Source: Ciceribacter thiooxidans
GTDB lineage: Bacteria; Pseudomonadota; Alphaproteobacteria; Rhizobiales; Rhizobiaceae
NCBI RefSeq assembly: GCF_014126615.1
Contig: NZ_CP059897.1
Span: 620,001 to 684,000 of the forward strand
Direction: 5' to 3'
Length of the DNA stretch: 64,000 nt
The notes under the pieces are model-generated. The model saw nothing but the letters and a program-made list of their open reading frames with translations, made no database searches and had not been told where the DNA came from. Below, in pieces: positions 27,272 to 42,731 of this stretch. Numbering within the stretch: the stretch's first letter is position 1; each line of letters opens with the position of its first letter. The position numbers and the translations under genes were made by a program.

Positions 27272-28451
27272 GGGATGGTTCCAGAAACGATGGTGCCGGG
27301 AGGATAGAAAGCGAGTCCGGTCATCGTGTGGTTGACGTGCATGGGGCCGATCTGCTCCCCGTAGGTCGAGAAGCCAATCACGCCATGTTTCCGCAACAAC
27401 TCCGAAACACGCCCTGTCATCTGCGTTTCCTCAGCCTCGATCCGCCGCAGTACACAATCGAAGGCCAGAATGGCGACCGGGTCTCGTGGTTGCTTCATGG
27501 CCTGCAGCTCGTCTGCCAGATGGGTCACAAGATCCCTCGGTTCGGCGATCGTCAGAACCATACCCTCATCAATTGCAGAAAAGAACAGAAGCTCTCCCGA
27601 GGGCAAAACCCGTTGGATCGCGCGGACATAATGACGCTCACCCATGCGGACCGTAAGGGATGAATTGCAAAGGTCAGCGTGTTGATGCTTTCCGGATGCA
27701 TCCCGATGAGCCGGGCATATTCGTGCACAGCGGGCTCGGCATTGATCCGCCGCACGATGCGGGCGGACGGATCCGCCTCGGTCACGACCATCCGCCGCTC
27801 CGTCGGCTTGATATGATCCATCTTGAAAGTGCGCATCGGGCAAGAACTGCGCATGACCGAGATCACGGCGGCGTTTGCAAGAACCCGATCGCGGTCGAAG
27901 ACCAAAGTCTCGCGGAAGCGGGCGCCGTCGCCCGCCGAACCGCCAATCAGCGGCATTGCCCCGGTGCCCGCAGCGAGCGCCGAGGCCAGCTCGTCCTCAC
28001 GGGTCGACAGGCCGTCAACGAGCAGCAAAGCGAACTCTTCCGGAAAGTGTCCACTCTCGCGAGCGAGCGTTTGGCGAAGATGCAACAGCGCATCGGAAAG
28101 CTCGCTCGCAACGAGCGTCGAGAGATCCGAAACAAGCAGCGTCTCGGCAGCAAAATAGCGGGCATGAAAGCCCACCGCGACGATGCTTCCGTCATCATAG
28201 CCTGCGCTGGAAATCTCACCCGCTGTCGTACAACCGGCGATTCGGGCGTCCGGCCAGGCTAGTGCCGCGTGCGAAACGGTGGCAAGCACGTTAGCCTCAG
28301 GAGAAACGAAGAGTAGGACAAGCGAAAACGGGCCGGGGCCAAGGCTTGCCGCCAGGAGCTCGACCGGGCAGGTGTCGTGCGCTGAAACGCGCGCACGCGC
28401 AACGAACTGTTCCTCCACGGGCGATGGCCTCCTCCGCCTTTCCCCCGTCAT
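27268..28451 (-). pseudogene. FIST-domain sensor protein, single-base frameshift
   Basis: Across one frameshift the gene encodes about 394 residues with FIST_N (including GCTTAGEI and the GGSAGDG segment) and FIST_C domains; the tail GVIGFSTYGEQIG is typical. Restoring one base in the GGG run at 27657-27659 (CCC to CCCC on the coding strand) converts a broken reading into IHPLTVRMGERHYVRAI. FIST proteins are sensory; the Pseudomonas homologue NosP binds heme and NO and partners with the hybrid kinase encoded next to it. A TTG start at 28505 would add 18 residues; neither start has a strong ribosome site. Confidence 0.82.
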
Positions 28452-28511
28452 CGAGTCTAAAGCATCTGGCGACCCGCGTGCCAGCGCGAAGTCGTGACCG
28501 ATCAACTGTTT

Positions 28512-29195
28512 TCAGATGTCGTTCACCATCGTGTTGAAACTGGCCTCCTGGGCGAACAGGACGGCTTGCATGCGGGTTTGCACGCCAAGCTTGCGCATGA
28601 TCGCGGTAATGTGCGCCTTTACCGTGGTCTCGGCGATCGAAAGCTCGTAGGCAATATGCTTGTTCATTCGGCCGGCACAAATGAGTTGCAGGATCCGCGC
28701 TTGCTGGCGTGTTAACAGCGCCAAGCGTTTGACTGCCTCTTCGGACGGCGTAGGCGACGAGGCTTCGAGTGCCATGCTGCTCGCATGGATTTCGCCGCGT
28801 GCTATAACCGAGAAAGCCTCGCGAAACTCTTCGCGCGAGGCATGTTTTGGCACGAAGGCGTTCACTCCCGCTTTCAGTGAGGCTCGTACCACGCGGATCT
28901 CGTCGAGCGAAGACACGACGACAATCGGCGTCTCCGACACGGCGCGCCGGAGACGCACCACTCCGTCGAGGCCGTTGACATCGGGCAGGTTCAGGTCGAG
29001 CACCACGACGTCCGGCAGAGGGCCTGCCTCCAACCGGGCCAGTGCAGCCTCCAGAGTCCCGACAGCCTCCACGTCCGGGATACCGACGGGCCCCGTCAAC
29101 GTCATTGCCAGCGCGTCACAGAACAACGGGTGATCATCAACGATCAACGCCGATTTCAACTTACGCACGGGCTTCTCGACGGTCGGAATTGGCAT
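28512..29195 (-). CDS. NarL/LuxR-type response regulator (ErdR/AgmR-like)
   Basis: The 227-residue regulator has a receiver domain (DD at 20-21, phospho-acceptor Asp67 in VVLDLNLPD, Lys117) and a C-terminal LuxR helix-turn-helix (LTRQQARILQLI, then IAYELSIAETTVKAHITAI). It resembles regulators of PQQ-dependent alcohol oxidation such as AgmR/ErbR. The ATG at 29195 (MPIPTVEKP) is preferred over the upstream in-frame start at 29234. It sits directly downstream of the alcohol dehydrogenase gene and upstream of the FIST and kinase genes, and is the best candidate to bind the dyads found in the three intergenic regions of this island. Confidence 0.88.
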   Translation of the reverse strand: MPIPTVEKPVRKLKSALIVDDHPLFCDALAMTLTGPVGIPDVEAVGTLEAALARLEAGPLPDVVVLDLNLPDVNGLDGVVRLRRAVSETPIVVVSSLDEIRVVRASLKAGVNAFVPKHASREEFREAFSVIARGEIHASSMALEASSPTPSEEAVKRLALLTRQQARILQLICAGRMNKHIAYELSIAETTVKAHITAIMRKLGVQTRMQAVLFAQEASFNTMVNDI

Positions 29196-29283: not shown

Positions 29284-29303
29284 GCCGGGCGTTTCCGCCC
29301 GGC
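29284..29303 (-). terminator. Terminator after the PQQ alcohol dehydrogenase gene
   Basis: An 8-bp GC stem (GCCGGGCG / CGCCCGGC) with a 4-base loop lies just after the dehydrogenase stop codon. On the minus strand it is followed by a T-rich stretch (TTTCTCCTTTTCC). It separates the highly expressed dehydrogenase from the regulator genes. Confidence 0.8.
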
Positions 29304-29309
29304 ACCGGT

Positions 29310-31076
29310 TCAGTTCAGCGATGCGAGCTCCTTGGGCAAGCGGAACGTCCAGATCATCCCGCCCTGATTGAGGTAATTGACCTTCTTGGCCACCTCGCCG
29401 CCCCAGAGAGGCACCGCGCCACCCCAGCCGGAGATCACCGAGACATATTGCTCGCCGTCCTGTTCCCAGGTCACAGGCTGTCCCACAATCCCCGAGCCGG
29501 TCTGGAACTTCCAGAGTTCCTCCCCGGTCTCGTTGTCGAGCGCGATGAAATCGCCTTCGGGCGTTCCGAAAAAGACGAGCCCGCCGGCTGTGGTCATCGT
29601 CCCGCCCCAAAGTGGCGCCCCGTTCTTGTACTCCCACTTGATTTCGCCGGTATTGGGGTCGATCGCCTTCAGGCTGCCGATATGGTCTTCGAAGAGCGGC
29701 TTGATGGTAAAGCCTGCGCCGAGATAGGCGGCTCCCTTCTTGTAGCTGATCGGCTCATTCCAGATGTCCATGCCCCATTCGTTGGAAGGAACATAGAACA
29801 AGCCGGTCTTCGGACTGTAGGCCATGGGCATCCAGTTCTTGCCGCCGAGGAACGAGGGAACGGCAAAGACCTGCTGGCCCTTGGAGCCGTTGGCAGCTGC
29901 CGCCGCGTCGCCTGGCCGGTTGTCCTCGTTATAGATCGGACGTCCCGTCTCATCGATGCCTTTTGCCCAACTGATGTTCTTCACGAACGGATGGGCGGAG
30001 ACGAACTTCCCGTCTTCGCGGTTCAGCACGTAGAAAAAGCCATTCCGGTCGGCCGTCGCAAAGCGCTTGTTTCCGTCCTTGTCGACGAAGGGCACAACCT
30101 CGTTGACGCCGTCGAAGTCCCAGCCCTCACGCGGAGTGGTCTGGAAGTGCCATTTGATCTCGCCATTCTCAGGATCGATGCCGAGTCGTGAGGCGGCATA
30201 AAGGTTGTCGCCCTTGTTGCCCTCGACCGGCTTGCCGGCGTTGCGGAGATGGCTGTTCCAGGGTGCGGGATTGCCGGCGCCGAACACGAGCGTCTTGGTG
30301 TCTTCGTCATAGGAACCGCCGAGCCAAGTGGCGCCGCCGCCGGTCTTCCACAGGTCGCCGGGCCATGTCGCATTAAGCGTCCCGGTCATCGTGCTTTCCT
30401 TGCCCTTGTAGGTGCCCATGTGACCCTCGATCACCGGTCGGGTCCAGACAAGTTCCCCGGTCTGCGCATCGCGCGCCTGCACTTCGCCGACAATGCCGAA
30501 TTCGCCGCCGGAATTGCCTGTGATGACGAGGCCGTTCACGATCAGTGGTGCGGCGGTATAGCTGTAACCTTCCTTGTAGTTCGCAATCTTCTTGTTCCAG
30601 ACCACATCACCCGTCTTGCGGTTCAATGCCACAAGACGGGCATCAAGGGTGCCGAAATAGATGTTGTCGCCGAAGATCGCCGCACCGCGGTTGACCACGT
30701 CGCAACAGGGCAAGATGCCCTCCGGAAGACGCGCATCATATTGCCAGATTTCCTTGCCGGTCTTCGTGTCGATTGCATAGAGGCGGCTGTAGGAGCCGGT
30801 AATATACATGATGCCGTCGTAGATGATCGGCTGGCTTTCCTGACCACGCTGCTTTTCACCGCCCAACGAGAACGCCCAGGCCGGCACGAGATTCTTGACG
30901 TTTTTGGTGTTCAACGTCTCCATCGGTGAGAAACGCTGCAGGCCGCGACCCATGCCGTTGGTCAAGACGTCGCCGACGGTTTCGGCGTCCTTTGCAATAT
31001 CCTCTTCCGTCACACCGGCATGCGCGGCACTCGCGCAGGCGATGGCCGCAATCGCGGCCAGTACGAGACTCCTCAT
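29310..31076 (-). CDS. exaF: Lanthanide-signature PQQ-dependent alcohol dehydrogenase (ExaF/PedH type)
   Basis: The 588-residue periplasmic quinoprotein has a Sec signal (cleavage after SAAHA) and an eight-blade propeller with W-motif repeats. Active-site features are visible: vicinal Cys124-Cys125 ([10 protein letters not shown]), Glu192 in GGEFGIVG, Asn274 in GNPAPWN and catalytic Asp320 in [10 protein letters not shown]. Asp322, two residues after the catalytic Asp, is the residue that distinguishes lanthanide-dependent enzymes (XoxF, ExaF/PedH) from calcium enzymes, which have Ala or Ser there. Overall sequence, such as [14 protein letters not shown], fits the ethanol-oxidising ExaF/PedH clade rather than XoxF. 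The ATG at 31076 follows GGAGGGAGG. Confidence 0.9.
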
Positions 31077-31153
31077 GACATCCTCCCTCCATGCCCACAA
31101 AGGATGCGGGCTCCACATGCGGATCATCCGCCTACTCGCCACCACCATGAATT

Positions 31154-31214
31154 GGACCTTGGTCGTAATCTTGGAGGCTTGGGCACCGCAGAGCCCCCCC
31201 AATAGGTCGTATAT
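31154..31214. promoter_or_regulatory. Shared dyad, intergenic region 1 of the alcohol island
   Basis: GGACCTTGGTCGTA at 31154-31167 (TACGACCAAGGTCC on the other strand) and a second half-site TAGGTCGTATAT at 31203-31214 lie between the divergent dehydrogenase and TauA-like genes. The second continues as TAGGTCGTATATCGAGCC, matching 16 of 18 bases of a site at 37234-37251. The same dyad occurs in the two other divergent regions of the island. Confidence 0.7.
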
Positions 31215-31266
31215 CGAGCCATATGAGCGGGGGGATACCATTCGACTGTTCAAGGGGAGGAGAGCT

Positions 31267-32241
31267 ATGACATTCCTGAAATCACTCATCGGCGCTGCGG
31301 TCGCTGCGCTTCTTTCCAGCATGCCAGCCTTCGCGGAAACGCCCGTCATCAGGGCGGCACTTCAGCTTTCAGGCACGGTAAACTGGGAGGCCGATACCAT
31401 CCGCCACTATGGCTTCGACAAGGCAAATGGTTTCTCGATAGCCGTGACCGACATCGCCGGGGCACCTGCTGCTCAGATCGCGCTCGTCGCCGGTGAGGTT
31501 GACATGATCGTTTCCGACTGGCTCTGGGTGGCGCGCGAGCGGGCCGCCGGCCGCGATCTTGTCTTCATCCCCTATTCACGCGCCGTTGGCGGGCTGATGG
31601 TACCGGCCGACAGTCGGGCCAAGACGCTTGCCGACCTGAAAGGACAAAAGATCGGTGTTGCCGGCAGCCCGATCGACAAGAGTTGGCTAATCCTGCGCGC
31701 GTATGCGCAGAAGGTCGAGCATTTCGATCTTGCCGAAACGACTGAGCAGGTCTTCGCTGCTCCGCCACTCGTCTACAAGGCGGCGCTCGGTGGCGAGCTG
31801 CAGGGGGCCTTGAACTTCTGGAACTTCGGCGCCCGGATGCAGGCTGCGGGCATGCGCACCCTGCTCGGGGTGGACGAGGCCGCCAGAGCTCTCGGCCTCG
31901 ATCCGGAAACACCGCTCATCGGTTATGTCGTGCGTGGCGAGGTCCTGAAGACGCACCCGAAACTCGGTGAAGCAATCGCCGCTGCCTCGCGCCAGGCAAA
32001 AGAGAAACTCTCCACCGATCCGAGCGCCTGGGCACGCATCCGACCGATGATGCGGGCTGAGACCGACGCGGAATTCGAGGCCTTGAAGGCGGGCTTCCTG
32101 GCCGGCACGCCGAAGCAGGGAGCCGTCAACGAACGGGCCGCAGCAAGGATGCTGGCGCTCATGGCCGAACTCGGTGGTTCCGATCTGGTCGGGGATCTGA
32201 AAGAGCTGCCTGATGGCGTCTTCCACCACCCCGGCAGCTGA
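31267..32241 (+). CDS. TauA/SsuA-type periplasmic binding protein
   Basis: The 324-residue protein has a signal peptide ([18 protein letters not shown], cleavage after PAFA) and the fold of nitrate/sulfonate/taurine binding proteins ([30 protein letters not shown]). AAGGGGAGGAG precedes the ATG at 31267. It overlaps the start of an ATPase gene by 29 bases; the matching permease gene is found 9 kb away at 41964. It is divergent from the alcohol dehydrogenase and shares its promoter region, so it likely serves quinoprotein metabolism. The ligand is unknown. Confidence 0.85.
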
Positions 32242-32910
32242 ACCCGTCCTGAAGCTCGATCTTCACGCCGGCGGGCCGGGCAGGGTGCTCGGCCCCATCG
32301 CCCTTACGCTCTCGCCGGGGGAGACATTGGCACTGACCGGCCCGTCGGGCGTCGGCAAGACTTCCTTGCTACGGATCATTGGCGGCCTCGACCACTGCTT
32401 TAGCGGCCATCGTGAAGCGACGGCCCACATCGCCATGGTTTTCCAGGAACCACTGCTCCTGCCGTGGCGTACGGCAGTTGAAAACCTCACGGTTATCGCA
32501 CGAATATCACGTGAGGAGGCGGAGCTCTGGCTGGAAAAGGTGGGGCTCGCTGGGCTGGGGATCGCTTTCCTCATATGCTTTCCCTCGGACAGCAACGACG
32601 GTTGTCCCTGGCGCGGGCCTTTGCCTGTGCACCGGAGCTGCTGCTCCTGGATGAGCCCTTCGTCAGTCTCGATCCCTCGCTTGCTTCGGACATGATGACT
32701 CTGCTCGAACGTCTGATTGCCGATCGTCCCTGTGCGACGCTCCTCGTCACCCATGTTCGGGGCGAGGCCGATCGTCTTGCCGGACGAATTCTTCGGATGG
32801 AGGGCCGCCCGGCCCGTATCCTGGAGGAAGATCAAAACACCCAGGCGCGCTTCCAAATCGCGGTGACCTCAGAGACGACTTCGGGATCGCAGCAGCCGAC
32901 TTGCAGATGA
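32213..32910 (+). pseudogene. TauB/SsuB-type ABC ATPase, single-base frameshift
   Basis: Across one frameshift the gene encodes about 232 residues: Walker A GPSGVGKTS, the Q-loop region VFQEPLLLPWRT, signature LSLGQQRRLSLARA and Walker B LLLLDEPF. The break is at the GGGG run 32557-32560, where one extra G restores GLGDRFPHMLSLGQQ. It belongs with the TauA-like protein encoded just upstream and probably with the permease at 41964-42731. As in the other cases in this window, a missed base in a homopolymer is the simplest explanation. Confidence 0.82.
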
Positions 32911-32970
32911 TCGGGAGCCGGACTGGGTGCGGATAGTTCTTCTCCAGGCTATTGCCCGCGCTCGGGTGGG

Positions 32971-33813
32971 TTATGTCTTTCGCGCGGTCGTTCCGCGTGC
33001 GGGATCGTAACCCCAAACGGCGACAAGGCCAAAGACGATGAAGGCGGCGAGCGTAATGGCAAGCGCCGTCGTGTTGCTCTTTGCATAGAGTGCGAAGCGA
33101 ATGAGTTCGACCGCATGGGTAAAGGGATTGAGCGCACAGAGGTCTCTCAGGCGAGGAGAGGCTTCGGCCATCGACCACAGCGGGTACAGAGCCGAGGAGA
33201 GAAAGAACATTGGAAAGATGACGAAGTTCATGACCCCGGCGAAATTCTCCAATTGCCGGATAAAGGAGGAGAGCAGCAGGCCAAGCGCACCAAGCATCAT
33301 CGCGGCGAGTGCCATTGCCGGGGCCGCGGCCACGTAGCCGAGCCAGGGAAAGCGGATACCGTACAGGGCCGCGATTGCCAGAAAGACATAGGCCTGCAAC
33401 ACGGCGATCAGACTTCCGGCCAGCAATCGGCAGGCAAGCAGCCACCAGCGAGGCAAGGGTGCCGTTAGCAACAGCCGCATCGATCCCATCTCTCGGTCAT
33501 AGACGAGACTGAGCGAGGACTGCATGCCACTGAACAACAGGATCATTCCGATCAGTCCCGGCACGATATAGATTTCGTAAGTAAGGTAGGTCCGGTAGGG
33601 CGGTGTTATCGAGAGTCCGAGCGCGGCGCGAAAACCGGCGGCGAAGACAAAGAGCCACACGAGCGGCCTGACCAGCGCCGCGATGAGCCGCCCTCGCTGC
33701 CCGAGGAACCGCAGAGCCTCTCGGTGCACGATCGCCCGCAATGTGATCAGGGCATGCGGCCTGAAAAGACCAGCGGTCTCCTGCTCCGCCGTCAAGAACA
33801 CCTCCACGGTCAT
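32971..33813 (-). CDS. ABC-2 type permease of the PQQ-alcohol system (PedC/LutF-like)
   Basis: The 280-residue membrane protein has six hydrophobic segments and the ABC-2 permease signature (VYDREMGSMRLLLTAPLPRWW). It overlaps the ATPase gene by four bases. The minus-strand gene set (family 1 ligand-binding protein, beta-propeller, small periplasmic protein, ATPase, ABC-2 permease) corresponds to the ABC system associated with PQQ alcohol dehydrogenases. This system is required for lanthanide-dependent growth as PedA1A2BC in Pseudomonas putida and resembles Lut in Methylorubrum. Lanthanide or lanthanophore transport is therefore inferred. Confidence 0.85.
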   Translation of the reverse strand: MTVEVFLTAEQETAGLFRPHALITLRAIVHREALRFLGQRGRLIAALVRPLVWLFVFAAGFRAALGLSITPPYRTYLTYEIYIVPGLIGMILLFSGMQSSLSLVYDREMGSMRLLLTAPLPRWWLLACRLLAGSLIAVLQAYVFLAIAALYGIRFPWLGYVAAAPAMALAAMMLGALGLLLSSFIRQLENFAGVMNFVIFPMFFLSSALYPLWSMAEASPRLRDLCALNPFTHAVELIRFALYAKSNTTALAITLAAFIVFGLVAVWGYDPARGTTARKT

Positions 33814-34523
33814 GTTTGCTCCCTTGTAAGCGCGAGAAAGTGTTGGTTCAACTCGTCACCACCGATTTCCCCTGCCTCACCGTCGGACAGGACTCGACCG
33901 CAATGAAGGACGACGAGCTGATCCCGACTTCGTACTTCGTCCACGAGGTGCGTTGCCCAAAGCACGGTCAGCCCCTCTGCGGCAAGATCGTGGACGTGCT
34001 GTGTGATTGCGGCGCGCGAGGCTGCGTCCAGCCCGACGGTCGGCTCGTCCAGCAGTAGCACCTCGGGCCGGTGGACGAGCGCACGGGCGATCTCCATGCG
34101 CTGGCGGTGGCCTCCATTGAGGCTTGCGGCCTTTTCCCCGGCACGCTCGGCCATGCCGAGCCTCTCGAGTGCCGCCACGATGCGGGTCTCCGCCTCTCGC
34201 CCTGAAAGCCCGTGAAGGGCGGCGAAATAGAGCAGATTGCGCCTGACGGTCAGGTCCGGATCAAGCGTCGAGGCCTGGAACACCACGCCCATACGGGCAA
34301 GTGCCGCACGCGGTTCACGCCCCACGTCATGGCCAGCAATTGCGATCCGGCCCTCTCGTGGAAGGAACAGCCGCGTGAGCACGCCGAACAATGTTGATTT
34401 GCCTGCGCCATTCGGACCAAGCAGAGCGCAGAAGCGTCCACGCTCGACCGAAAAGGAAACGCCGTCAAGAGCATGCCGGGTGCCCCAGTTGTGGCTCACG
34501 TCTTCTAAAATCAGGCCACTCAT
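33810..34523 (-). CDS. ABC ATPase of the PQQ-alcohol system (PedB/LutE-like)
   Basis: This 237-residue ATPase has Walker A GPNGAGKST, a degenerate signature SLNGGHRQRMEIARAL (NGGHR in place of SGGQ) and Walker B VLLLDEPTVGLDAASR. It resembles the DrrA/NatA-like ATPases that pair with ABC-2 permeases, here the overlapping gene at 32971-33813. It belongs to the operon that starts at 37153. The histidine in place of Gln in the signature is noted in members of this subgroup and need not mean inactivity. Confidence 0.88.
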   Translation of the reverse strand: MSGLILEDVSHNWGTRHALDGVSFSVERGRFCALLGPNGAGKSTLFGVLTRLFLPREGRIAIAGHDVGREPRAALARMGVVFQASTLDPDLTVRRNLLYFAALHGLSGREAETRIVAALERLGMAERAGEKAASLNGGHRQRMEIARALVHRPEVLLLDEPTVGLDAASRAAITQHVHDLAAEGLTVLWATHLVDEVRSRDQLVVLHCGRVLSDGEAGEIGGDELNQHFLALTREQT

Positions 34524-34530
34524 GTCCTGC

Positions 34531-34986
34531 TCACTCTATGGTCATTGTGACCTGTTGCGTGTCGCCTTTGCTGCCGGGAACCGTGAGATGGTAGCTTCCG
34601 GGCCTTATGGCGACAAAGCTGATTTCCGCCTTGCCGCTCTCGTCGAACTCGATCGAAGCGACCCCGAACGGCCGGATTTCGATACCCTCGATGACGATCT
34701 CGTTGATCCAGACCGCCCGGAAGAAGCCGGCTCCCTCGAGCGCCAGCTCCTGGCTGCCGTCCGCCTCGATTTCAAGGGTGTAAAATCGTCCGGATTTCAA
34801 CCTCAGCGGCTCCTCGGCAATCGGCTGACCGGCCGCAAGCGTAAGCTTCGGTAGCCGTTCGCGGTTGGATTTCGCAAGGATGCCGGCAGGTGCCATGCCT
34901 GCCGTGATCTCGTTGGCGTCCGCCAGCGAGGCGAAAGGCAGGGCCGTGAGCGCCAAGGCTGCGATAATCCTGTTCTTCACCGACAT
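34531..34986 (-). CDS. Small periplasmic protein of the PQQ-alcohol ABC operon
   Basis: The 151-residue protein has a signal peptide (MSVKNRIIAALALTALP, cleavage near SLADA) and a predicted all-beta, cupredoxin-like body (RFYTLEIEADGSQELALEG; GSYHLTVPGSKGD). No Cys or clear metal-binding set is visible, so it is not a typical blue copper protein. It starts 14 bases after the end of the corrected beta-propeller gene, with GGGGG before its ATG. Because of the frameshift in that gene the two appear as one long open frame, but they are separate proteins with separate signal peptides. A role as an accessory ligand-binding protein of the transport system is inferred from position. Confidence 0.72.
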   Translation of the reverse strand: MSVKNRIIAALALTALPFASLADANEITAGMAPAGILAKSNRERLPKLTLAAGQPIAEEPLRLKSGRFYTLEIEADGSQELALEGAGFFRAVWINEIVIEGIEIRPFGVASIEFDESGKAEISFVAIRPGSYHLTVPGSKGDTQQVTMTIE

Positions 34987-34999
34987 GTCCCCCGGATCG

Positions 35000-35964
35000 T
35001 TATGGCCGCATCGCCGCCCCCAGGGGAAGCGTCCGACTTTGATAGATTTTACGGGCTCTAGCGACGCGACATCGATGATGGTCACGTCCCCAGAGACACC
35101 ATTGGTGGAAAAGAGCTGCTTATGGTCCGGCGAGAATGCGAGATGCCAGACCCGACGCCCGACGAGGATATAGGTCTTGACTGCGAACGTATCGGTGTCG
35201 ATTGCCGCAACATGGTTCGCGGGCCCGAGCGCGACGAAAGCCGTTTTGCCGTCGGGCGTGAACGTGAAACCGACAGGTTGAATCAGATCAGCTTTGATAC
35301 CGGCAATCTCAAAGGAGATCTTGGCCTTCTCGGCGTGCGTTGCCACGTCGAAGACGGTGATTGTGCCGCCAATTTCGGAGGAGACCCAGAGTTCGGTGCC
35401 GTCCTTGGCGAACTCGGCATGGCGCGGGCGGGGATCGACGAGCGTATTGGCGAAGATCTTCCTCGTTTCGGTGTCAATCCAATGCGCCATATTGGTCGTT
35501 TCCGACGTCGTGATGACGGTCTTGCCATCTGGCGAGACGGCCATTCCTTCCGGCTCGATGCCAACGTTAATCTGAGCCACGACCTGGCGACTGTCGACGT
35601 CGACAACCGTGGTTACGGCGTCGTTCTCGTTGGCGATCCACAAATGCCTGTCGTCGGGAGCGAGTACGAACTGTTCGGGATCCTCGCCCGAGGGCAGATC
35701 GTACAAGATCTTGCCGGTGGCAGGATCCATTACCTGAACCGTGTCGCTGTCAGAGGCGCAGATATAGACCCGGCTCCAGTCGGAACTGAAGGTAATCCCG
35801 CGTGGCCGTTCGCCGGTCGGGATGGTGCGCACGACCTCGAGCTGGTCAGTGTCGACAACCGAAATGGTGTCATCCTTTTCGTTCGTTACCCAGATCTCCC
35901 CTCCGACGGCTTCAAGAGACGTCGTGGCCAACATGGTCGCGGTAAGCAGGACTTGAAGTCTCAT
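35000..35964 (-). pseudogene. YVTN beta-propeller protein of PQQ catabolism, single-base frameshift
   Basis: This 321-residue exported beta-propeller has a signal peptide (MRLQVLLTATMLATTS) and YVTN-type repeats (IWVTNEKDDTISVVDT, VWHLAFSPDHKQLFS). It matches the PQQ-dependent catabolism-associated beta-propeller family found with PedA/Lut ABC systems. The reported frame runs past its end into the next gene. One extra base in the C run at 35017-35021 gives the normal end GRFPWGAAMRP and a TAA at 35000-35002. The ATG at 35964 follows GGAGG and sits one base from the stop of the binding-protein gene. Confidence 0.82.
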
Positions 35965-35965
35965 T

Positions 35966-37153
35966 TCATCCTCCAAAGGCGGTGCAGCCGCTCTCGGGCC
36001 GGTCCAGGCCAAGTGTGTCCATCTCGTTGTTTTGGTGAAGGTATCCCTCGAGAGGGGCGAGTTCGACCAGTGCGCGGGCATTGACCACCGGCATGGGTTG
36101 GCGAAGCTGGCCGTCCCAATCCCGATAGCTAAGGCTGCGGCCCTTGAAACCGTCGAGCGCAAAATCGCGAGAGAGTATGAACTTTCGCAGCGTGACCGGG
36201 TCGGCAGAATTGGTGCGAGTGACAGCTTCGCCGATGGTGCGTAGCGCTATCCATGCGGCATAGTCGCGCGAGCCCATTTCGCGGCCCGCTGTCTTCTCGA
36301 ACCGGTTCTGTAGCTGCACTGCTCCCCATTGCTCAAGCACTGGCGCCCATCCCTCGCCATGCAAGCCGTCCGACCCGGCGATCGGGCGGGGCAGCCACGT
36401 ATTGTCCTGGACATAGCGCCCGAAATCATTGGCCTCGTCGGCGATCAGCAGAACATCGTGATCGGGAAAGTCCTGGGTGAACAGTGGGAGTTCGCGGCCG
36501 GCAGCCCGCCGCAGGTCAGTATTGAAGGTCCAGTTCTTCGAGGCGAGGATCTCGACGCCGAATTTTTGCGCCGAGGCGCGCAATCTCTCGGCAAAAACCT
36601 GGTCCTCGGGTTTTGGACCGACAATCAGCACCGTTCGAGTCCAGCGGCGGGCTCTCAGCACTTGCATCAGTGCATCGCTGCGCATGGTGTCTTCGGCCAT
36701 GGTGTGCAACACATTGATGCGGCAGTCCACATCTCGCAGCTGGCTTGCGCCGGACGCAACGTTGAAGAGCAGGGCGTCCTTGGCTTCAGGCAGATCGGCC
36801 ACGGCCAGAATGTCCTGCGGCTGCGCGTCGACAAACAGGATCTTCGATGTGGCGAGCGCCGCGCGGGCCGCTCCGAGGAAGTCGCCTCCCGGCTCGACTG
36901 ACGCGATCGCGAGGCTATAATCGTGGCCCATGAAGCTGCCGGTCGTCTTGGTGTCTGCCAGCGCGACCTGCGCTCCGGCAATGCCCCGGTCTTCCGGAAT
37001 GGGATCCAGGTTGGAAAGGACTGGCGGCGCCTGAATTTCCTGCCTCAGATAAGCCATCGGTATAGCAATTTCAGCCATGGCAGAGGACGCCCAGCAGAAG
37101 ATCGCCGCCGCGAACCACAGGCTACTCCGGAACGCGTTGAAGCTTTCGCGCAT
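35966..37153 (-). CDS. Type I periplasmic binding protein of the PQQ-alcohol ABC system
   Basis: The 395-residue protein has a signal peptide (MRESFNAFRSSLWFAAA, cleavage after SAMA) and a branched-chain-amino-acid-type (Peripla_BP) fold, matching the substrate-binding member of the PQQ-dehydrogenase-associated ABC family (PedA/LutA-like). It is the first gene of the minus-strand transport operon, with GGGGAGGA before the ATG at 37153, divergent from the cytochrome c gene. Pairing of a type I binding protein with an ABC-2 permease is unusual and typical of this lineage. Confidence 0.85.
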   Translation of the reverse strand: MRESFNAFRSSLWFAAAIFCWASSAMAEIAIPMAYLRQEIQAPPVLSNLDPIPEDRGIAGAQVALADTKTTGSFMGHDYSLAIASVEPGGDFLGAARAALATSKILFVDAQPQDILAVADLPEAKDALLFNVASGASQLRDVDCRINVLHTMAEDTMRSDALMQVLRARRWTRTVLIVGPKPEDQVFAERLRASAQKFGVEILASKNWTFNTDLRRAAGRELPLFTQDFPDHDVLLIADEANDFGRYVQDNTWLPRPIAGSDGLHGEGWAPVLEQWGAVQLQNRFEKTAGREMGSRDYAAWIALRTIGEAVTRTNSADPVTLRKFILSRDFALDGFKGRSLSYRDWDGQLRQPMPVVNARALVELAPLEGYLHQNNEMDTLGLDRPESGCTAFGG

Positions 37154-37202
37154 ATAGCATCCTCCCCGGCCCGAGAATGGCGGCACGCGTGAGAAGCCGA
37201 AA

Positions 37203-37241
37203 TACGACCTTGGTGCCATGGGATGGCGCGACCTAGGTCGC
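37203..37241. promoter_or_regulatory. Shared dyads, intergenic region 2 of the alcohol island
   Basis: TACGACCTTGGTG at 37203-37215 and the perfect 14-base palindrome GCGACCTAGGTCGC at 37228-37241 lie between the divergent transport and cytochrome c operons, 24 bases apart centre to centre, so on nearly the same DNA face. The second continues as TAGGTCGCATATCGCGCC, which is almost repeated at 31203. Confidence 0.75.
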
Positions 37242-37303
37242 ATATCGCGCCGCGTCCTTGCTGCCTTACATGTTTGCGAATTGGAAATGCGAGGGAGGAC
37301 CGC

Positions 37304-37990
37304 ATGACGGCCAATAGTATTCGCGGCGGGATCGCCGTTTTCATTCTCATGGCGACGACGAGCTTGGTCGTCGCTCACGGCGACGTCGCGCCACAACCAG
37401 TCAACACGGACGCCTTGCCCGAGGTGGGTGATGAGTGGCTGGGCGAAAACCCTTATCGAGAGGCCAAAGCCGGCCATGAGGTCTGGCTGAAGGCGGTCGA
37501 AATCGGGGGGTCGGGCTTCAACCAGAATTGTGCACGCTGTCATGGCCTTGGCGCGGTCTCCGGTGGTCTTGCACCCGATCTGCGGCTCCTTGAGGCGGAG
37601 GAGTATGGTGACGAATGGTTTATCGAGCGCTTTCGGCACGGCTATACTCAGGATGGTACGACCAAGATGCCGGCGTTTGGGGACATCCTTGGGCAAAAGG
37701 CGGCCTGGGCCATTCGCACCTATGTGGAAACGCGGCCGGAAGATGGTGCTCTGGATGCGCATGCGAAGCGCTTGCATGAAATCCGCGACGAACTGGGCAG
37801 CGGGAAGGTCGCCGATACCGAAGCTCTCAAGAAGGAGCTTGAGACGATTGCCATCGGCGTAAAGACAGCTTCCGGTGCTCCCGTCGCCGACAGCGTTACA
37901 TATGAAGCCGCGCGCATCCTCTCGGACGAGCCGGAAAGTTGGAAAAGAGCGTCAGACGTGCTGACGGTCGGCCTTTCGGCCACGCAGTAA
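37304..37990 (+). CDS. Cytochrome c-550 (PedF-like) electron acceptor
   Basis: The 228-residue exported cytochrome has a signal peptide (ending in SLVVAHG) and a single heme motif NCARCHG (Cys76, Cys79, His80), with a later TTKMPAFGD segment holding the axial Met. It matches cytochrome c-550 PedF, the electron acceptor of PQQ alcohol dehydrogenases. GAGGGAGGA precedes the ATG at 37304. It is followed after five bases by the XoxJ-like gene. Confidence 0.88.
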   Translation: MTANSIRGGIAVFILMATTSLVVAHGDVAPQPVNTDALPEVGDEWLGENPYREAKAGHEVWLKAVEIGGSGFNQNCARCHGLGAVSGGLAPDLRLLEAEEYGDEWFIERFRHGYTQDGTTKMPAFGDILGQKAAWAIRTYVETRPEDGALDAHAKRLHEIRDELGSGKVADTEALKKELETIAIGVKTASGAPVADSVTYEAARILSDEPESWKRASDVLTVGLSATQ

Positions 37991-37995
37991 TTGCC

Positions 37996-38892
37996 ATGGT
38001 ACGCCGCCTTTCTCTTGCACTGGCAATCGGCGTCGCTCTTCCGGGCGGCGCCGTTGCGCGTTGCGAAGGCTATGTGCCTCAGGCCAGGCCGCAGAACACG
38101 TTTGCACAAGATGTCGGCCGTGAATTCGACCGGATCCTGACGGACGGTTGGATCGAGTTCGCGGTTTATGCGGATTATGCGCCATGGTCCTTTGAAGAGA
38201 AGGGGAGGGCGGCCGGCGTGGATGTCGAGGTCGGCCGGCTGATTGCGAAGGCGTTGGGGGTGGAGCCAAAGTTCCGCCTCGTTGCGGCTGGTGAGAACCT
38301 CGAAGCCGACCTGATGAACTACGTCTGGAAGGGGGCCGCCGTGGGCGGTCGCGTCAGCGACGTCATGCTGCATGTGCCCTATGACAGCGAGCTTGTTTGC
38401 CGCATCGAACAGGTAACGTTTACCGGACAGTATGCCGCCGAAAACATCGCCATCGCCTATCAGGGTGCCGATTATGAGGAGAAGGGTCCAACCCCGCCTT
38501 TCTTCCGGTTCGATCCCGTCGCTGTAGAGAACGATTCAATTGCCGACTTTTATCTTACATCGCTGATCGGCCCCGCCGGCAAGATCCACCGGTTTCGATC
38601 GACCGCCGCGGCCATGGATGGACTTGCGGCAGGAGATACGAAGGCGGCGATGGGACCGCGCGCTGAACTGGAGGCGGGGATTGTTCGCCATCCTGAGGGC
38701 GGGCTGAAGGTGCACTCCCCGCCGCTCGTGGGTTTCGCGCGGGGGAACTGGACGATCGGCGTCGGTGTCAGCTTTCAGCACAGGGATCTCGCCTATGCCG
38801 TCGATGATGCGATCGAAAACGCGCTTGGCGACGGTGAGATCAGTCGCATCTTTGCCCAATACGGACTGACCTTCACACCGCCGCAGCGGTAG
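37996..38892 (+). CDS. XoxJ/MxaJ-like periplasmic protein
   Basis: The 298-residue exported protein has a family 3 solute-binding fold (VYADYAPWSFEEKGRAAGVD; DVMLHVPYD) and resembles the quinoprotein-dehydrogenase-associated binding proteins MxaJ/XoxJ, thought to help activate or mature the dehydrogenase. The ATG at 37996 (MVRRLSLALA) begins a signal peptide; an earlier in-frame start lies inside the cytochrome gene. It is convergent with the ApbE gene, with two bases between stops. Confidence 0.82.
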   Translation: MVRRLSLALAIGVALPGGAVARCEGYVPQARPQNTFAQDVGREFDRILTDGWIEFAVYADYAPWSFEEKGRAAGVDVEVGRLIAKALGVEPKFRLVAAGENLEADLMNYVWKGAAVGGRVSDVMLHVPYDSELVCRIEQVTFTGQYAAENIAIAYQGADYEEKGPTPPFFRFDPVAVENDSIADFYLTSLIGPAGKIHRFRSTAAAMDGLAAGDTKAAMGPRAELEAGIVRHPEGGLKVHSPPLVGFARGNWTIGVGVSFQHRDLAYAVDDAIENALGDGEISRIFAQYGLTFTPPQR

Positions 38893-38894
38893 CT

Positions 38895-39770
38895 TCAGAA
38901 TGTGGAGACGTCGCCTGTGGCATCCACCGCCGTTACGCGCGTCACCTCTCTGATCCGGTCACGCGTTGCGCGGATTTCGTCGGCCGACATCAGGCAGAAG
39001 GCGGTGGAAAGACCGTCGGCGATCGCCGCGCTCTCCGCTTCTACCGAGATCGTCGACCAACAGGGCCGCTCGCCATGCGGACCGAGAATGTGAAAGTCGT
39101 TACCGAGCGTCATGGCGGAGGGACTAGACGTTGCGATCGCAGTGCCTCCAAGGCGGCGGATTGCAACCCGGCCCCAAGTCGGATCTTCGACCGAGACGTT
39201 GAACGGTCCACCGAGGGCAGCAAACTCTCCCATCTCCACAAGAGCTTGAGCGTAGCCTGCATCCCGCAAGAGGCTACGCACCCGGTCGGCAGCGTAGCCT
39301 TGGGCGATGCCGTTGAACGTTACCGCTTGCCTTTCGCCCAGCCGAACAGACGGACCGACGCGCACCTGTTTCCAGCCGATCGCTGCACGCGCCTGCGTCG
39401 TGTCTCTGCCCTCGGCAAGGGCGCGCCAGAGCGGCTGCACCGTTGGATCGAACCGCCCGCCGGTTGCCTCATGGACATAGGCGGCGAGATGAAGAAGCTC
39501 GAGAAGTGCAGCGGGCGGATTGTCGAGGTGACCAAGAGTATTCAGGTGGCTGATTGCGGACGTCGGTTTGAAGAGGCTTGCTGTCGCCTCGATTTCTGCG
39601 ATCGTCGTGCCGATCGATTCCGCAACGTAACGAGACAGACCACGGGGACCGCGCAGGTCCACCCGTACTAACCCGCCCAGCATCTCAGCTTGCCAGGAGG
39701 TCACCTCCGCGCGCGCAGCATTCTGGACGGTCATGGCCGCGGCGATGAGCAAGAAGCGACGCCGGTTCAT
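38895..39770 (-). CDS. apbE: ApbE, FAD:protein FMN transferase
   Basis: The 291-residue protein transfers FMN from FAD to a threonine of extracytoplasmic proteins. A Tat-like signal (MNRRRFLLIAAAMTVQ), the HLNTLGHLDNPP region, VTFNGIAQGYAADRV and the acidic residue in VEMGEFAALG fit ApbE. Its start overlaps the end of the NosR-like gene by four bases, so that protein, which carries a flavinylation motif, is its obvious substrate. Confidence 0.88.
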   Translation of the reverse strand: MNRRRFLLIAAAMTVQNAARAEVTSWQAEMLGGLVRVDLRGPRGLSRYVAESIGTTIAEIEATASLFKPTSAISHLNTLGHLDNPPAALLELLHLAAYVHEATGGRFDPTVQPLWRALAEGRDTTQARAAIGWKQVRVGPSVRLGERQAVTFNGIAQGYAADRVRSLLRDAGYAQALVEMGEFAALGGPFNVSVEDPTWGRVAIRRLGGTAIATSSPSAMTLGNDFHILGPHGERPCWSTISVEAESAAIADGLSTAFCLMSADEIRATRDRIREVTRVTAVDATGDVSTF

Positions 39771-41851
39771 GCAGGGACCTCCGCCTCGGTAACCGTCGGG
39801 CGTTTTCGATAAGCCAGCACTCGCGGTACACATTGTGTCGCATCATCATGGATCGCAACGCAATCGAGGCACTGGAAACACTCGGAATAATTGATGCGCC
39901 CGGTTCTTCCTATAGCACCGTAGGGGCAGCGCACCCGGCAGAGCTGGCAAGGAGAACCGCATTCCAGTCGCCGGGGTATCCAGTTCCGCGTGCGCAGCAG
40001 TCCACCGAGAGCCATCGCTGCACCGAGCGGGCAAATGTAACGGCAGAACCCCTTGAAGGTCACTGTAGCGAGAAGCATCCAGAAGGCCGCGTAGGCGACG
40101 TAATACCATTCGCGCTGGAATAGGGTTGTGATCGCTGTCTTGAAGGGCTCGATCTCTGCGGCTGTTTCGGTCTTATCCGGGGCAATGAGGCTGACTGCGA
40201 CCAGGCCGGCGAGCGAGAGCCATGGGCCGACCTTCAATCGCCTGTCCCACACTGGCGACGGTCTCCATTGTGGCAATCGAAACAAGCGGCCGAGATGGTG
40301 GGCAAATTCCTGCATTGCGCCAAACGGACAGAGCCAGCCGCAGAAAAGACCGCGTCCCCAGAGCACAAACCCGAGAATGGCAGCGCCCCAGACCATGAGC
40401 GAGAAAGGGTCGTACAGCAGAACCGACAGGTTGCCATCCCCTGCTTGCCGGAGAACAGCAAGGGGCGTGACGATCGATAACTGCCCCTGGCCCCACCAAC
40501 CCACAAACCCGATGACCAGCGTCAGAAAGGCAAACCGTGTCGGGCGCAGCACCGTTGGTGTAGCCAGCCGGTGCATACCGGGGCCGACCGCGCCAAGCAA
40601 ACCCACGATAAGGGCAGCCAGCACGAGGAGGTCCCATTTGCGGCCGATGATTGCCGCCTGCCATGGCGATAACCTGCGGGAGACTTCCGGTCGGATGAAG
40701 GAAGCTGGGTCAGCCCTGACCGTGATCGGGAATTCGACGGAGCGCATCTCGGGCAGCAACATGCCATGGGAACGTACGGCCAGGGCGGAGAGGGTCCATT
40801 CCCGCGTGGGATCGAAACCCAAACGGCGGTCGATCCTCAGGATCATCGTCGTACCCCGCGGCACTTCCGGCCGGACTTCGATCATCATGTCGGCATCGCG
40901 CAGGGCGACGGGCAACCCGTCCTGCATGGCCATAATCCGGTCGGGCGCGGTGTTGCGCACGAAGTCCGCCGAAACGAGTCCGTGGCGGCCGGATTCGATG
41001 ATCAGTACCGGCTCATCGTCCGGGGACACGCGCACGAGGCCCTGAATCTCGCCCAAACTCTCATCACTCAAGACCGCTCGGGCAACTGCGGGAGGGCCGA
41101 TGTCCACGACCCAGAGATCCAGAAAGAAGGCCTCCGGATCGTTCGCTGCCTCCGGGTCATCATTCTCCCATTGTGTACCCGCAAACGCATCGTCAAGTTC
41201 TGCGTTCGTCACCTTGAGATGCCGGGCCAACTTGCGTTCGACGAGCGTCGCCCAGTCAAGCTTTTCGTCGACCGACGGATTGGGGTGTACGGGCGGGCCG
41301 CTTGTGAGGCCTTGCATCTTCTCCCGCGCGACGGCGAGTGTCGCAGCGAGGATCGTTTCGTGCGCGATGCGGACGGACGCCGTCGCCTTGGTCACACCAT
41401 CGAGATAGACGAGGCTGGAGCCGCCTCCCGCCTCTCCATACGGTGTTCCGACCACGAGCGCCTCGCGGATCGAATGACCGCGATATTGCTCGAGGAAGGC
41501 GCGCAATGGCGCTTCACCAAGACCCGACACGAAGATGGGTTCGTTCTGTTTGATAAGCCGGACGTCCAGGAAGCGGCCCTCCTTGTCGATTAGCACGAGC
41601 ATGTCGATAGGCGCGCCGGAAAAACCCGGAAGCGGTGCGAGCGGTCCGGTTTCGAAGGCATACCCCGCCTGTGCTCCCCCGGAATTGAGCAGCGCCCACA
41701 CGCCTTTTTGATTCACCTTCTCGCCAAGCGCATAGGGCGGCACGATCAACTCCGCGAGAGCCTCGCGGCCGAGCGCTGCCGCCTGCACAATGTGGGCGCC
41801 AGAAAGCATGCAGAGAACGAACAGGCTCAGCAGTGCCAGGTGTCTCCTCAT
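39767..41851 (-). CDS. NosR/NirI-like flavin-binding membrane polyferredoxin
   Basis: This 694-residue protein has a signal peptide, a periplasmic FMN-binding domain with motif DGVTKATAS (residues 151-159; Thr157 is the likely flavinylation site), a membrane part of several helices, CxxxCP motifs in FCGWLCPFGA and FCRYICPLGA, and C-terminal [4Fe-4S] clusters (CGSPCQLCRVRCPYGAI; CFQCLDCVAIH). This is the layout of NosR, which passes electrons from the quinol pool to periplasmic acceptors. No nosZ is nearby; the setting is a PQQ alcohol island. It could instead receive or deliver electrons in alcohol oxidation. GGGGAGGA precedes the ATG at 41851. Confidence 0.88.
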   Translation of the reverse strand: MRRHLALLSLFVLCMLSGAHIVQAAALGREALAELIVPPYALGEKVNQKGVWALLNSGGAQAGYAFETGPLAPLPGFSGAPIDMLVLIDKEGRFLDVRLIKQNEPIFVSGLGEAPLRAFLEQYRGHSIREALVVGTPYGEAGGGSSLVYLDGVTKATASVRIAHETILAATLAVAREKMQGLTSGPPVHPNPSVDEKLDWATLVERKLARHLKVTNAELDDAFAGTQWENDDPEAANDPEAFFLDLWVVDIGPPAVARAVLSDESLGEIQGLVRVSPDDEPVLIIESGRHGLVSADFVRNTAPDRIMAMQDGLPVALRDADMMIEVRPEVPRGTTMILRIDRRLGFDPTREWTLSALAVRSHGMLLPEMRSVEFPITVRADPASFIRPEVSRRLSPWQAAIIGRKWDLLVLAALIVGLLGAVGPGMHRLATPTVLRPTRFAFLTLVIGFVGWWGQGQLSIVTPLAVLRQAGDGNLSVLLYDPFSLMVWGAAILGFVLWGRGLFCGWLCPFGAMQEFAHHLGRLFRLPQWRPSPVWDRRLKVGPWLSLAGLVAVSLIAPDKTETAAEIEPFKTAITTLFQREWYYVAYAAFWMLLATVTFKGFCRYICPLGAAMALGGLLRTRNWIPRRLECGSPCQLCRVRCPYGAIGRTGRINYSECFQCLDCVAIHDDATQCVPRVLAYRKRPTVTEAEVPA

Positions 41852-41899
41852 GGCCGTATTCCTCCCCCCGATTTCTATGCGTCGGAGGAGCCGTTGCCA

Positions 41900-41914
41900 T
41901 ACGACCAAGGTCGC
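41900..41914. promoter_or_regulatory. Shared dyad, intergenic region 3 of the alcohol island
   Basis: TACGACCAAGGTCGC lies 49 bases upstream of the NosR-like start and 50 bases upstream of the divergent permease start, matching the dyads at 31154 and 37203-37241. This ties the NosR/ApbE pair and the separated permease to the same candidate regulon. Confidence 0.75.
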
Positions 41915-41963
41915 GGATCAGAGCCGCGGTTCAGCAGCTATAGTCTGCACGGGAGAAACTTAG

Positions 41964-42731
41964 ATGTCGCAAAAGACCCTCGGCGCCTACGTGGAAGCGA
42001 GCGTGTTCTTGCTTTCGCTCATCCTGTTTGGACTGTTTTGGGCAGGCCTCGCTGCCCTCAAGGCCGATCCGACCGTTCTCCCCGGACCCGTGGAGGTCGC
42101 GCAGGTGTTCTGGTCGGAGACGCGAGCTGGCCGGTTGCCCACCGAACTGCTCGCGACACTGTTACGTGTCGTGGCTTCGTTTCTTCTTGCCATGGGTTTG
42201 GGTTGCCTGCTCGGCTTCTTGCTCGGCCGCTACCGTGGCCTCAACCGCTGGGCCGATCCCTGGGTAACGATCTTCATGAATCTGCCCGCCCTGGTTTTGA
42301 TCGTGCTGTGTTATCTTTGGATAGGACTCAATGAAACTGCGGCAATTGTCGCTGTGACGCTCAACAAGACCGCGATGGTGATGGTTACCATCCGCCAAGG
42401 TGTCGGTTCCTTTGATCCCGCGTTTGATGATCTGGCTTCCGTCGCGAGGCTTTCGCGCAGAGAGCGGTTTCGGCATCTCATCCTGCCGCAACTTGCGCCT
42501 TGGCTTGCGGTGGCAGCTCGCAACGGCATCGCGATCATATGGAAAATCGTTCTGGTGGTGGAGTTTCTCGGCCGTTCCAGTGGGGTTGGCTTTCGTATCC
42601 ACCTCTATTTTCAGCAGTTCCAGATCGCCCACGTGCTCGTTTATTCCCTCTCGTTCGTCGCTGTCATGCTGATCGTTGAGCATGGGTTCATTCAGCGCTG
42701 GGAGGCGCGTGCGGCGAGGTGGAGACATTGA
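41964..42731 (+). CDS. TauC/SsuC-type ABC permease, separated from its partners
   Basis: The 255-residue inner-membrane permease has six helices and the EAA loop (FDDLASVARLSRRERFRH) typical of nitrate/sulfonate/taurine importers. No binding protein or ATPase lies next to it. The TauA-like and TauB-like genes at 31267-32910 lack a permease, have the same orientation and share the same upstream dyad, so the three probably form one importer although their genes are 9 kb apart. The ATG at 41964 follows GGGAGAAA. Confidence 0.85.
   Translation: MSQKTLGAYVEASVFLLSLILFGLFWAGLAALKADPTVLPGPVEVAQVFWSETRAGRLPTELLATLLRVVASFLLAMGLGCLLGFLLGRYRGLNRWADPWVTIFMNLPALVLIVLCYLWIGLNETAAIVAVTLNKTAMVMVTIRQGVGSFDPAFDDLASVARLSRRERFRHLILPQLAPWLAVAARNGIAIIWKIVLVVEFLGRSSGVGFRIHLYFQQFQIAHVLVYSLSFVAVMLIVEHGFIQRWEARAARWRH

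Follow-up and report, generated by a model that had tools for sequence, protein, structure and literature searches.

We analysed a stretch of 64,000 nucleotides from Ciceribacter thiooxidans (contig NZ_CP059897.1, positions 620,001 to 684,000; hereafter the window, whose first letter is position 1). It carries an alcohol oxidation island of the ped/exa type, and a short inverted repeat, hereafter the box, recurs between the divergent genes of this island. Five copies of this element were found in its three divergent intergenic regions (31077-31266, 37154-37303 and 41852-41963): four full boxes (A, B1, B2 and C) and one half-matching box (A2).

The island and its boxes

The NCBIfam models for the pyrroloquinoline quinone (PQQ) alcohol dehydrogenase (PQQ_enz_alc_DH), PedA1 (PQQ_ABC_bind), PedA2 (beta-propeller), the PQQ ATP-binding cassette (ABC) ATPase PedB, PedC and PedF were all matched above their curated cut-offs, which identifies a ped/exa cluster. 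Box A (31151-31167, minus strand) is nearest to the gene of the PQQ-dependent alcohol dehydrogenase (ADH) of ExaA/PedE type (29310-31076, minus; TIGR03075, 773.9 bits). Box A2 (31195-31211, minus) is nearest to a TauA/SsuA-like substrate-binding protein gene (31267-32241, plus; weak SsuA family match of 22 bits), which is followed by a TauB-like ABC ATPase gene (32213-32910, plus) broken into two overlapping frames in this sequence. In the second region, B1 (37203-37219, plus) lies next to a pedA1-pedA2-pedB-pedC-like operon (32971-37153, minus) for a substrate-binding protein, a beta-propeller protein, an ABC ATPase and an ABC permease (TIGR03863, TIGR03866, TIGR03864 and TIGR03861). B2 (37226-37242, minus) is nearest to the gene of cytochrome c-550 PedF (TIGR04494), which occupies 37304-38892 (plus) together with the gene of a periplasmic-binding-type protein showing weak general matches only. 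Finally, box C (41900-41916, plus) is a single dyad between the NosR-like flavoprotein/ferredoxin and ApbE-like genes (38895-41851, minus; 422 bits for NosR and 24 bits for ApbE, both below the cut-offs) and the divergent gene of a TauC/SsuC-type ABC permease (41964-42731, plus; below the cut-offs), the separated partner of the TauAB-like genes.

The proposed binder of the boxes is a NarL/FixJ-type response regulator with a LuxR helix-turn-helix (28512-29195, minus), whose recognition helix reads IAETTVKAH. It is adjoined by a NosP-like (FIST) nitric oxide (NO) sensor gene, split into two frames, and by a NahK/ErcS'-like hybrid histidine kinase gene (together 25079-28505, minus), which probably form the input side. 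The matches to NosP, NahK and near_NosP were under the curated cut-offs, though the scores of the NosP-like, NahK-like and NosR-like proteins were strong.

The 17-mer of box A is TACGACCAAGGTCCAAT (TACGACC-AA-GGTCCAA), that of B1 TACGACCTTGGTGCCAT, that of B2 TGCGACCTAGGTCGCGC and that of C TACGACCAAGGTCGCGG (TACGACC-AA-GGTCGCG). B2 contains a perfect palindrome of 14 bases, GCGACCTAGGTCGC (37228-37241), and its centre is 24 bp from that of B1. Box A2 (TACGACCTATTGGGGGG) reads TACGACC-TA-TTGGGGGG, with the left heptamer whole and the right half degenerate; in the alignment of this region, the stretch conserved in relatives is CAATAGGTCGTATATC, and two related loci (L039 and L041) have a full box at the A2 position.

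The first-pass annotation of the window had pointed to a common dyad in these three regions. All the sites it quoted exist between divergent gene starts, and every coordinate was recovered from the sequence. Relative to its consensus, TACGACCAAGGTCG (41900-41913) is identical, TACGACCAAGGTCC (31154-31167, minus strand) has one mismatch and TACGACCTTGGTGC (37203-37216) has two, while TAGGTCGTATATCG (31203-31216) is a near copy of the flank. When up to two mismatches were allowed, the consensus gave 10 matches in the window, palindromic places being counted on both strands, versus 1.10 expected, and none of 100 shuffles reached 10. One of the matching places (37357-37372) falls within the cytochrome gene, a correction to the annotation. 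Its statement that the dyad is absent from the other intergenic regions of the window holds for close copies and has to be amended for a copy with two mismatches at 13284. This weaker dyad, which spans 13283-13299 and reads CCGACCAAGGTCCGATG on the minus strand, is located in a gene-poor stretch off the island.

Conservation in related islands

A single scan found 26 related loci, all of which were used, and the box was sought within 220 bases upstream of start codons extrapolated from tblastn matches. It preceded the six operon heads at 111 of 122 testable starts: the dehydrogenase (20/22), the PedA1-like substrate-binding protein (SBP, 24/26), the cytochrome (25/26), NosR (15/18), TauA (13/15) and TauC (14/15). 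Upstream of six internal or regulator genes of the same loci, no box was present at any of 133 starts (regulator 0/22, kinase 0/22, NosP 0/23, XoxJ-like 0/26, ABC ATPase 0/23, ApbE 0/17). A reversed-pattern control on the same stretches gave 1/122 and 2/133, respectively. As divergent genes share one intergenic box, the upstream counts are not independent; L038 (ADH), L040 (regulator) and L043 (kinase) fell outside the testable counts. The box was missing in L046 and L052 for ADH, L049 and L052 for SBP, L049 for the cytochrome, L048, L049 and L052 for NosR, L047 and L052 for TauA, and L052 for TauC.

Alignments of the three regions comprised 15, 26 and 15 rows, counting the window itself. Mean identity to the window was 0.62 in all three, and the 15-mers of highest identity were the boxes, with values of 0.97 (box A), 0.92 and 1.00 (the box C 15-mer from 41899, 15 rows). 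The first-pass annotation had suggested conservation as a check; most of the 26 islands do have the box ahead of their homologous operon heads.

The zero counts for the regulator, kinase and NosP genes led us to discard autoregulation through a dedicated box. The regulator gene may possibly be transcribed by read-through from the dehydrogenase gene. Between the two lies a terminator-like hairpin, GCCGGGCGGAAACGCCCGGC (29284-29303, minus), followed by T-rich DNA; shuffled sequences yield 1.2 such stems by chance.

The permease gene, described as distant in the first-pass annotation, does belong to the box-headed units, and its description can be refined: it encodes the TauC-type partner of the TauAB-like genes. 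Homologues of TauA, TauC and TauB are contiguous in, for example, L052, L136-L138, L146 and L151. In 14 of the 26 related loci (L027-L037, L039, L047 and L050), TauC stands apart beside NosR, as in the window. Each half of the split transporter mostly has its own box, L047 being without one at TauA. A common operator would keep the two halves co-expressed.

In the regulator tree, Frigidibacter (Paracoccaceae) falls within a group of Shinella and its relatives. This placement points to movement of the island between lineages and to a recent common origin of the related copies. In Frigidibacter oleivorans (L033), the island is laid out as in Shinella and its regulator is nested among rhizobial ones; horizontal transfer is the likely origin. 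In an Ensifer locus (L042, 9833-9872), the palindromic and the asymmetric boxes of the PedA1/cytochrome region are swapped with respect to L044.

Specificity in the genome

Within the 5.04 Mb genome, the short core CGACCWWGGTCG alone was non-specific. Among the matches listed, it was exact at 12 distinct places, of which the island has two; when one mismatch was allowed, it gave 194 matches per strand versus 62 for a reversed control. The longer form TACGACCWWGGTNNAAT with at most one mismatch occurred at three places, two in the island and one within an open reading frame (ORF); two mismatches gave 12 places versus 7 for the reversed control.

A matrix of 22 columns was then built without the window, from 56 different sites found in 24 other loci. 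The 94 starting rows were reduced to 82 sites, 56 of them different, by dropping six intragenic rows, two rows that repeated a counted dyad on its second strand and four intergenic rows (L045 17850, L047 5198, L052 8835 and L052 1528). For each genome, 150 of about 2,200 first-look candidates (2,260 in this genome, fewer in some) were scored, and weak sites may be missed. The top four places in the genome were A, B1, C and B2 (18.1, 17.4, 17.1 and 16.6 bits), followed by B2 on the opposite strand (13.4 bits) and C1:3485690 (13.3 bits); the four other places listed all lay within ORFs. A2 scored 8.0 bits. The genome-wide scan proposed in the first-pass annotation therefore left the full boxes at the top four ranks, and the motif did not turn out to be frequent.

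In 17 genomes of the same genus, no match above 15.0 bits was obtained among the candidates scored (150 per genome at most). A close relative of the island PedA1-like protein was also absent from these 17 genomes, three of which are less than 90% complete: 14 had no match at E 1e-20 and three had matches of 41-43% identity. Since boxes of high score are absent from genomes without a close PedA1 relative, boxes of such quality accompany the island.

Candidate regulon members outside the island were also considered. Nine of the ten off-island 17-mer matches (at most two mismatches) were inside a listed open frame and the tenth, C1:85880, was intergenic; they were not retained. An extension of the regulon to PQQ synthesis and XoxF was abandoned as well: the xoxF-pqqB region (C1:278000-286500) held two loose matches (L087 465 and 2846), which both fell in open frames and did not precede xoxF or pqqB. 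The second PQQ_ABC_bind copy of the genome, near this region, had no strict box (L169), and its top matrix score was 10.9 (L118) versus 22.6-28.8 for full boxes.

Box layout and promoter geometry

The box TAC[G/T]ACC-WW-GG has the 7-2-7 layout of a NarL-type dyad, i.e. two inverted half-sites of 7 bp with 2 bp between them. A and C follow it, B1 and B2 do so imperfectly and A2 has the left half alone. A2 and B2 have in common a flank after the box half, GGTCG followed by [T/C]ATATCG (31210-31216 and 37241-37247), which relatives conserve in part; it is more than the 7-2-7 box requires. In the accessible sections of two papers, NarL dimers bind this layout of inverted heptamers 2 bp apart, and an engineered site also starts with TAC (PMC7419079, PMC4549865). 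NarL is of the same family as the island regulator, of which it is the top PDB match. Unlike NarL operators, the island boxes have the heptamer TAC[G/T]ACC, precede other genes and would answer another signal.

The box also resembles the ACTU motif of CrbR/ErdR. As given in the part available of PMC5715377, this is a 17-bp imperfect inverted repeat, TAC[G/T]AC[C/T]-WW-N-GTC..AAT, at -52 to -36 of Pseudomonas fluorescens acs. Both elements are 17-bp inverted repeats, both are associated with a LuxR-type response regulator, and the position of ACTU equals that predicted below for the boxes. They differ in that ACTU serves acetate genes whereas the island box precedes ped/exa genes, in that 51 of the 56 different sites of the island type carry G at position 10, and in that the local regulator is outside the ErdR-like clade of the tree. 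Box A agrees with a predicted ACTU site at 14 of 17 bases and with the acs site at 13. The highest agreement with five ACTU sites (shuffles reaching it per 100,000 in brackets) was 14 for A (0), 11 for C (150), 11 for B1 (404), 9 for B2 (3,211) and 7 for A2 (46,040). The likeness thus ranges from clear (A) through fair (B1 and C) and weak (B2) to none (A2). Elsewhere in the genome, at C1:85880-85896 (G000; L056, L085), an ACTU-like box, TGCGACCAAGGTCTAAG, is found between genes and upstream of a gene whose translation reads like sdhC; it is a possible target of the ErdR-like regulator encoded at C1:2989967.

In order to locate core promoter elements, a -10 score was averaged over the aligned rows for each distance from the box centre. 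At all six promoters, the box centre was 31.5-32.5 bases upstream of a -10-like hexamer. The dehydrogenase hexamer, GATGAT (31123-31128, minus), is 31.5 bases from the centre of A and is kept in 14 of 21 rows. For TauA, the window has TACCAT (31236-31241, plus) at 32.5 bases from the A2 centre, and TAnnnT is found at 31.5 in 11 of 13 rows; a first set of 19 rows included loci without TauA, and the repeat used the 13 rows with it (L037 was lost through the search frame). The PedA1-like gene has CATTCT (37174-37179, minus; 23 rows), 31.5 bases from B1, and the cytochrome gene TACATG (37267-37272, plus), 32.5 bases from B2, with TAGAAA, TACAAA or TAAAAA in 12 of 18 rows. On either side of C, and 31.5 bases from its centre, are AGAAAT for the NosR-like gene (41871-41876, minus; 7/15 rows, a distance of 30.5 scoring almost equally) and TATAGT for TauC (41939-41944, plus; 8/15 rows).

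When the first base of the hexamer is put at -12, the box centre comes near -43.5. With starts predicted in this way from the sequence, the boxes would occupy the position of a class II activator site, beside the core promoter. Due to the 24-bp spacing, B1 and B2 are each also near -67.5 relative to the promoter of the other; for NarL, activation of ogt derivatives is reported with sites whose centres are at -44.5 and -67.5 (PMC7419079, available in part). An earlier assignment had each of B1 and B2 drive the gene it points to (distances of 30.5 for PedA1 and 56.5 for the cytochrome). The gene-proximal one was preferred, since B2 is a palindrome and this choice gives the same spacing as at the other promoters. 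Alternative -10-like hexamers that overlap the B1 and B2 boxes remain conceivable.

The regulator associated with the box

The association between box and regulator was followed across the phylum. PQQ_ABC_bind was searched in 398 genomes, with 58 places over its cut-off, and 40 regions were taken: 37 of these 58 and three under the cut-off, all from outside the order-mate genomes of 4.7-8.8 Mb. The other 21 places were the window itself, 13 viewed as short loci only and 7 others. Of the 40 regions, 17 had the pattern T[AG]C[GT]ACCWW[GT]G ahead of a ped gene, versus 1 for the reversed pattern and a mean of 0.24 (maximum 3) for 100 token-shuffled patterns.

All 12 loci with an IAETTVKAH regulator had the box, compared with 5 of the 28 without one in the stretch (Fisher 1.1e-6, uncorrected for kinship). 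The genomes of these five loci encode such a regulator elsewhere (L170, L172, L183, L184 and L186), so that all 17 box-bearing genomes encode a response regulator with the helix of the island LuxR-type protein. A whole-genome regulator search (E 1e-25) covered 12 genomes; in six of them (G047, G099, G143, G205, G277 and G342) all the matches had other helices, and no box was present at the genes tested there. In two of these, G099 and G205, which have exaA-type clusters and the helices IAEGTVKAH and IAEATVKAH, TACGACC half-boxes occur between genes (a count made without control); a single full box of G099 (L143 7723) lies off the starts tested. Among the loci of other classes of the phylum, 12 of 13 had TACTACC or TGCTACC, and L138 had TACGACC.

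The helix IAETTVKAH is thus common to the island regulator and to ped-linked regulators of more distant families, the latter being AgmR judging by their position. In the regulator tree, the ErdR-like, the distant AgmR-like and the island-type proteins formed three separate and well-supported clades, whose mutual order was not settled. The island gene adjoins nosP and nahK/pedS1 in a ped/exa cluster, which is the setting of AgmR/PedR1/ErbR. The protein that the first-pass annotation had named as the best local candidate is therefore well supported, in so far as its helix accompanies the box in every box-bearing genome of this sample.

Discussion

Taken together, these results suggest that the NarL/FixJ-type response regulator encoded in the island (28512-29195), a counterpart of AgmR/PedR1/ErbR, uses the dyads as its operators, a reading to which we give a probability of about 0.8. 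They also argue strongly that one regulator co-controls all the box-headed units. Several observations weigh against this reading. The matrix sites were chosen by a regular expression fixing most of the core, and a recent common ancestor is probable for the related islands. A2 is only half a box, with an ACTU likeness no better than chance, and the hexamers of the NosR and PedA1 promoters are weak. L049 has an IAETTVKAH regulator yet no strict box, and one of the five regulators encoded elsewhere (L184, G023) has an internal stop codon. The top family of the regulator, ErdR (NF041830), reaches only 150.5 bits for a cut-off of 390, and in the tree the regulator is not united with the AgmR-like clade of more distant families. 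Finally, in the accessible text of PMC9603970, the MEME motif proposed for EmaR, the counterpart of PedS1R1 according to the portion available of PMC13390443, is quite different from the box.

The likeness to the ACTU motif raises the question of whether the boxes are instead bound by the ErdR/CrbR-like regulator of C1:2989967, the island then being part of an acetate/ethanol regulon run from elsewhere. This paralogue scores 219.7 bits against ErdR, above the local regulator but also below the cut-off, its helix (VSEATIKAH) is similar, and the ACTU-like copy upstream of the sdhC-like gene would fit such a regulon. We consider this unlikely: the top box matches of the genome are confined to the island holding the local regulator, the acs locus and two acs-like loci of the genome gave no match to a relaxed box, and G047, in which an ErdR-like regulator (VSEATVKAH) is the sole match at E 1e-25, has an exaA-type dehydrogenase yet no box. 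Still less probable is that two or more regulators use the boxes, as PedR1 and PedR2 do at pedE, the local one sharing them with another NarL-type protein. Two-tier control is reported for Pseudomonas in the sections available of PMC13390443, and the pairs B1/B2 and A/A2 leave space for a second regulator. However, no second response regulator was noticed among the island genes, no search aimed at PedS2/PedR2 being made, and the alignments displayed no evident second long conserved block besides the boxes, the -10-like hexamers and the ribosome-binding stretches.

Conservation by itself does not identify the binder, and the dyads might represent another shared element, such as a repressor operator, a nucleoid site or a recombination relic, conserved and unrelated to the local regulator. 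The activator-like spacing to the -10-like hexamers, the 7-2-7 layout, the restriction to operon heads and the way the box follows a single regulator helix, both in alphaproteobacteria and in more distant families of the phylum, make this very improbable.

If the local regulator is the binder, it would be phosphorylated, probably via the neighbouring NahK/ErcS'-like kinase, which is perhaps tuned by NosP and NO. The phosphorylated dimer would then bind the 7-2-7 box TACGACC-WW-GGTCG, centred near -43.5, and activate transcription from beside the RNA polymerase. Box A would serve the dehydrogenase, A2 TauA-TauB, B1 the pedA1A2BC-like operon and B2 cytochrome c-550, while the single palindrome C would serve both divergent units, NosR-ApbE and TauC.

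Such a scheme has a parallel in Pseudomonas. In the sections available of PMC12997753, the ped cluster of P. putida includes nosP, pedS1, agmR, pedC, pedB and pedA2; taken with those of PMC13390443, it shares with the island pedA1A2BC, pedF, a PQQ-dependent ADH, nosP, nahK/pedS1 and the response regulator gene. PedR1/AgmR is reported there as a master activator of periplasmic alcohol oxidation, acting on pedE, pedF, pedI and pedS2R2, and directly on the catabolic genes by the inference of its authors (PMC13390443); co-induction by one activator would be a further common feature. The extra PedS2/PedR2 tier of Pseudomonas ped is a probable difference between the two systems, and the island adds NosR/ApbE and the split TauABC transporter (PMC12997753, PMC13390443).

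We think it somewhat probable that TAC[G/T]ACC-WW-GG is a general operator of the AgmR/PedR1-type NarL branch, from alphaproteobacteria to distant proteobacterial ped clusters, which is read by IAETTVKAH and whose half-box changes track helix changes. In rhizobial islands, the same operator would hold the split transporter (tauAB, with tauC about 10 kb off) and NosR/ApbE in one regulon, with one palindrome for two divergent promoters. The dyads constitute a new operator set for a regulator type already known. The portions available of PMC12997753 and PMC13390443 contain no AgmR/PedR1 operator, nor, in the latter, the word motif; none was named in the titles and abstract openings returned by a literature search, and an earlier description is possible. 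The titles displayed by a search on the box letters, about half of those it matched, seemed unrelated to alcohol regulation.

With the 17-bp box and its common spacing, direct control can be tested at six promoters, and the PQQ alcohol pathway becomes linked to NosR/ApbE and to a Tau-type transporter of unknown substrate. Of the consequences open to testing, the most interesting is the helix-to-box code that is offered for the ErdR/AgmR branch of NarL regulators.

Interrupted reading frames

Two genes of the window are interrupted. The split TauB-like frame (32213-32910) corresponds either to a sequencing error or to a recent disruption; in L027 and L028, the homologous frame runs uninterrupted over 226 codons. 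The two broken frames are about 5 kb apart and may be assembly errors. For the NosP-like gene (27268-28505, minus), the same two loci have homologues whose frames stay open over 386 and 401 codons, counted from the start of the match.

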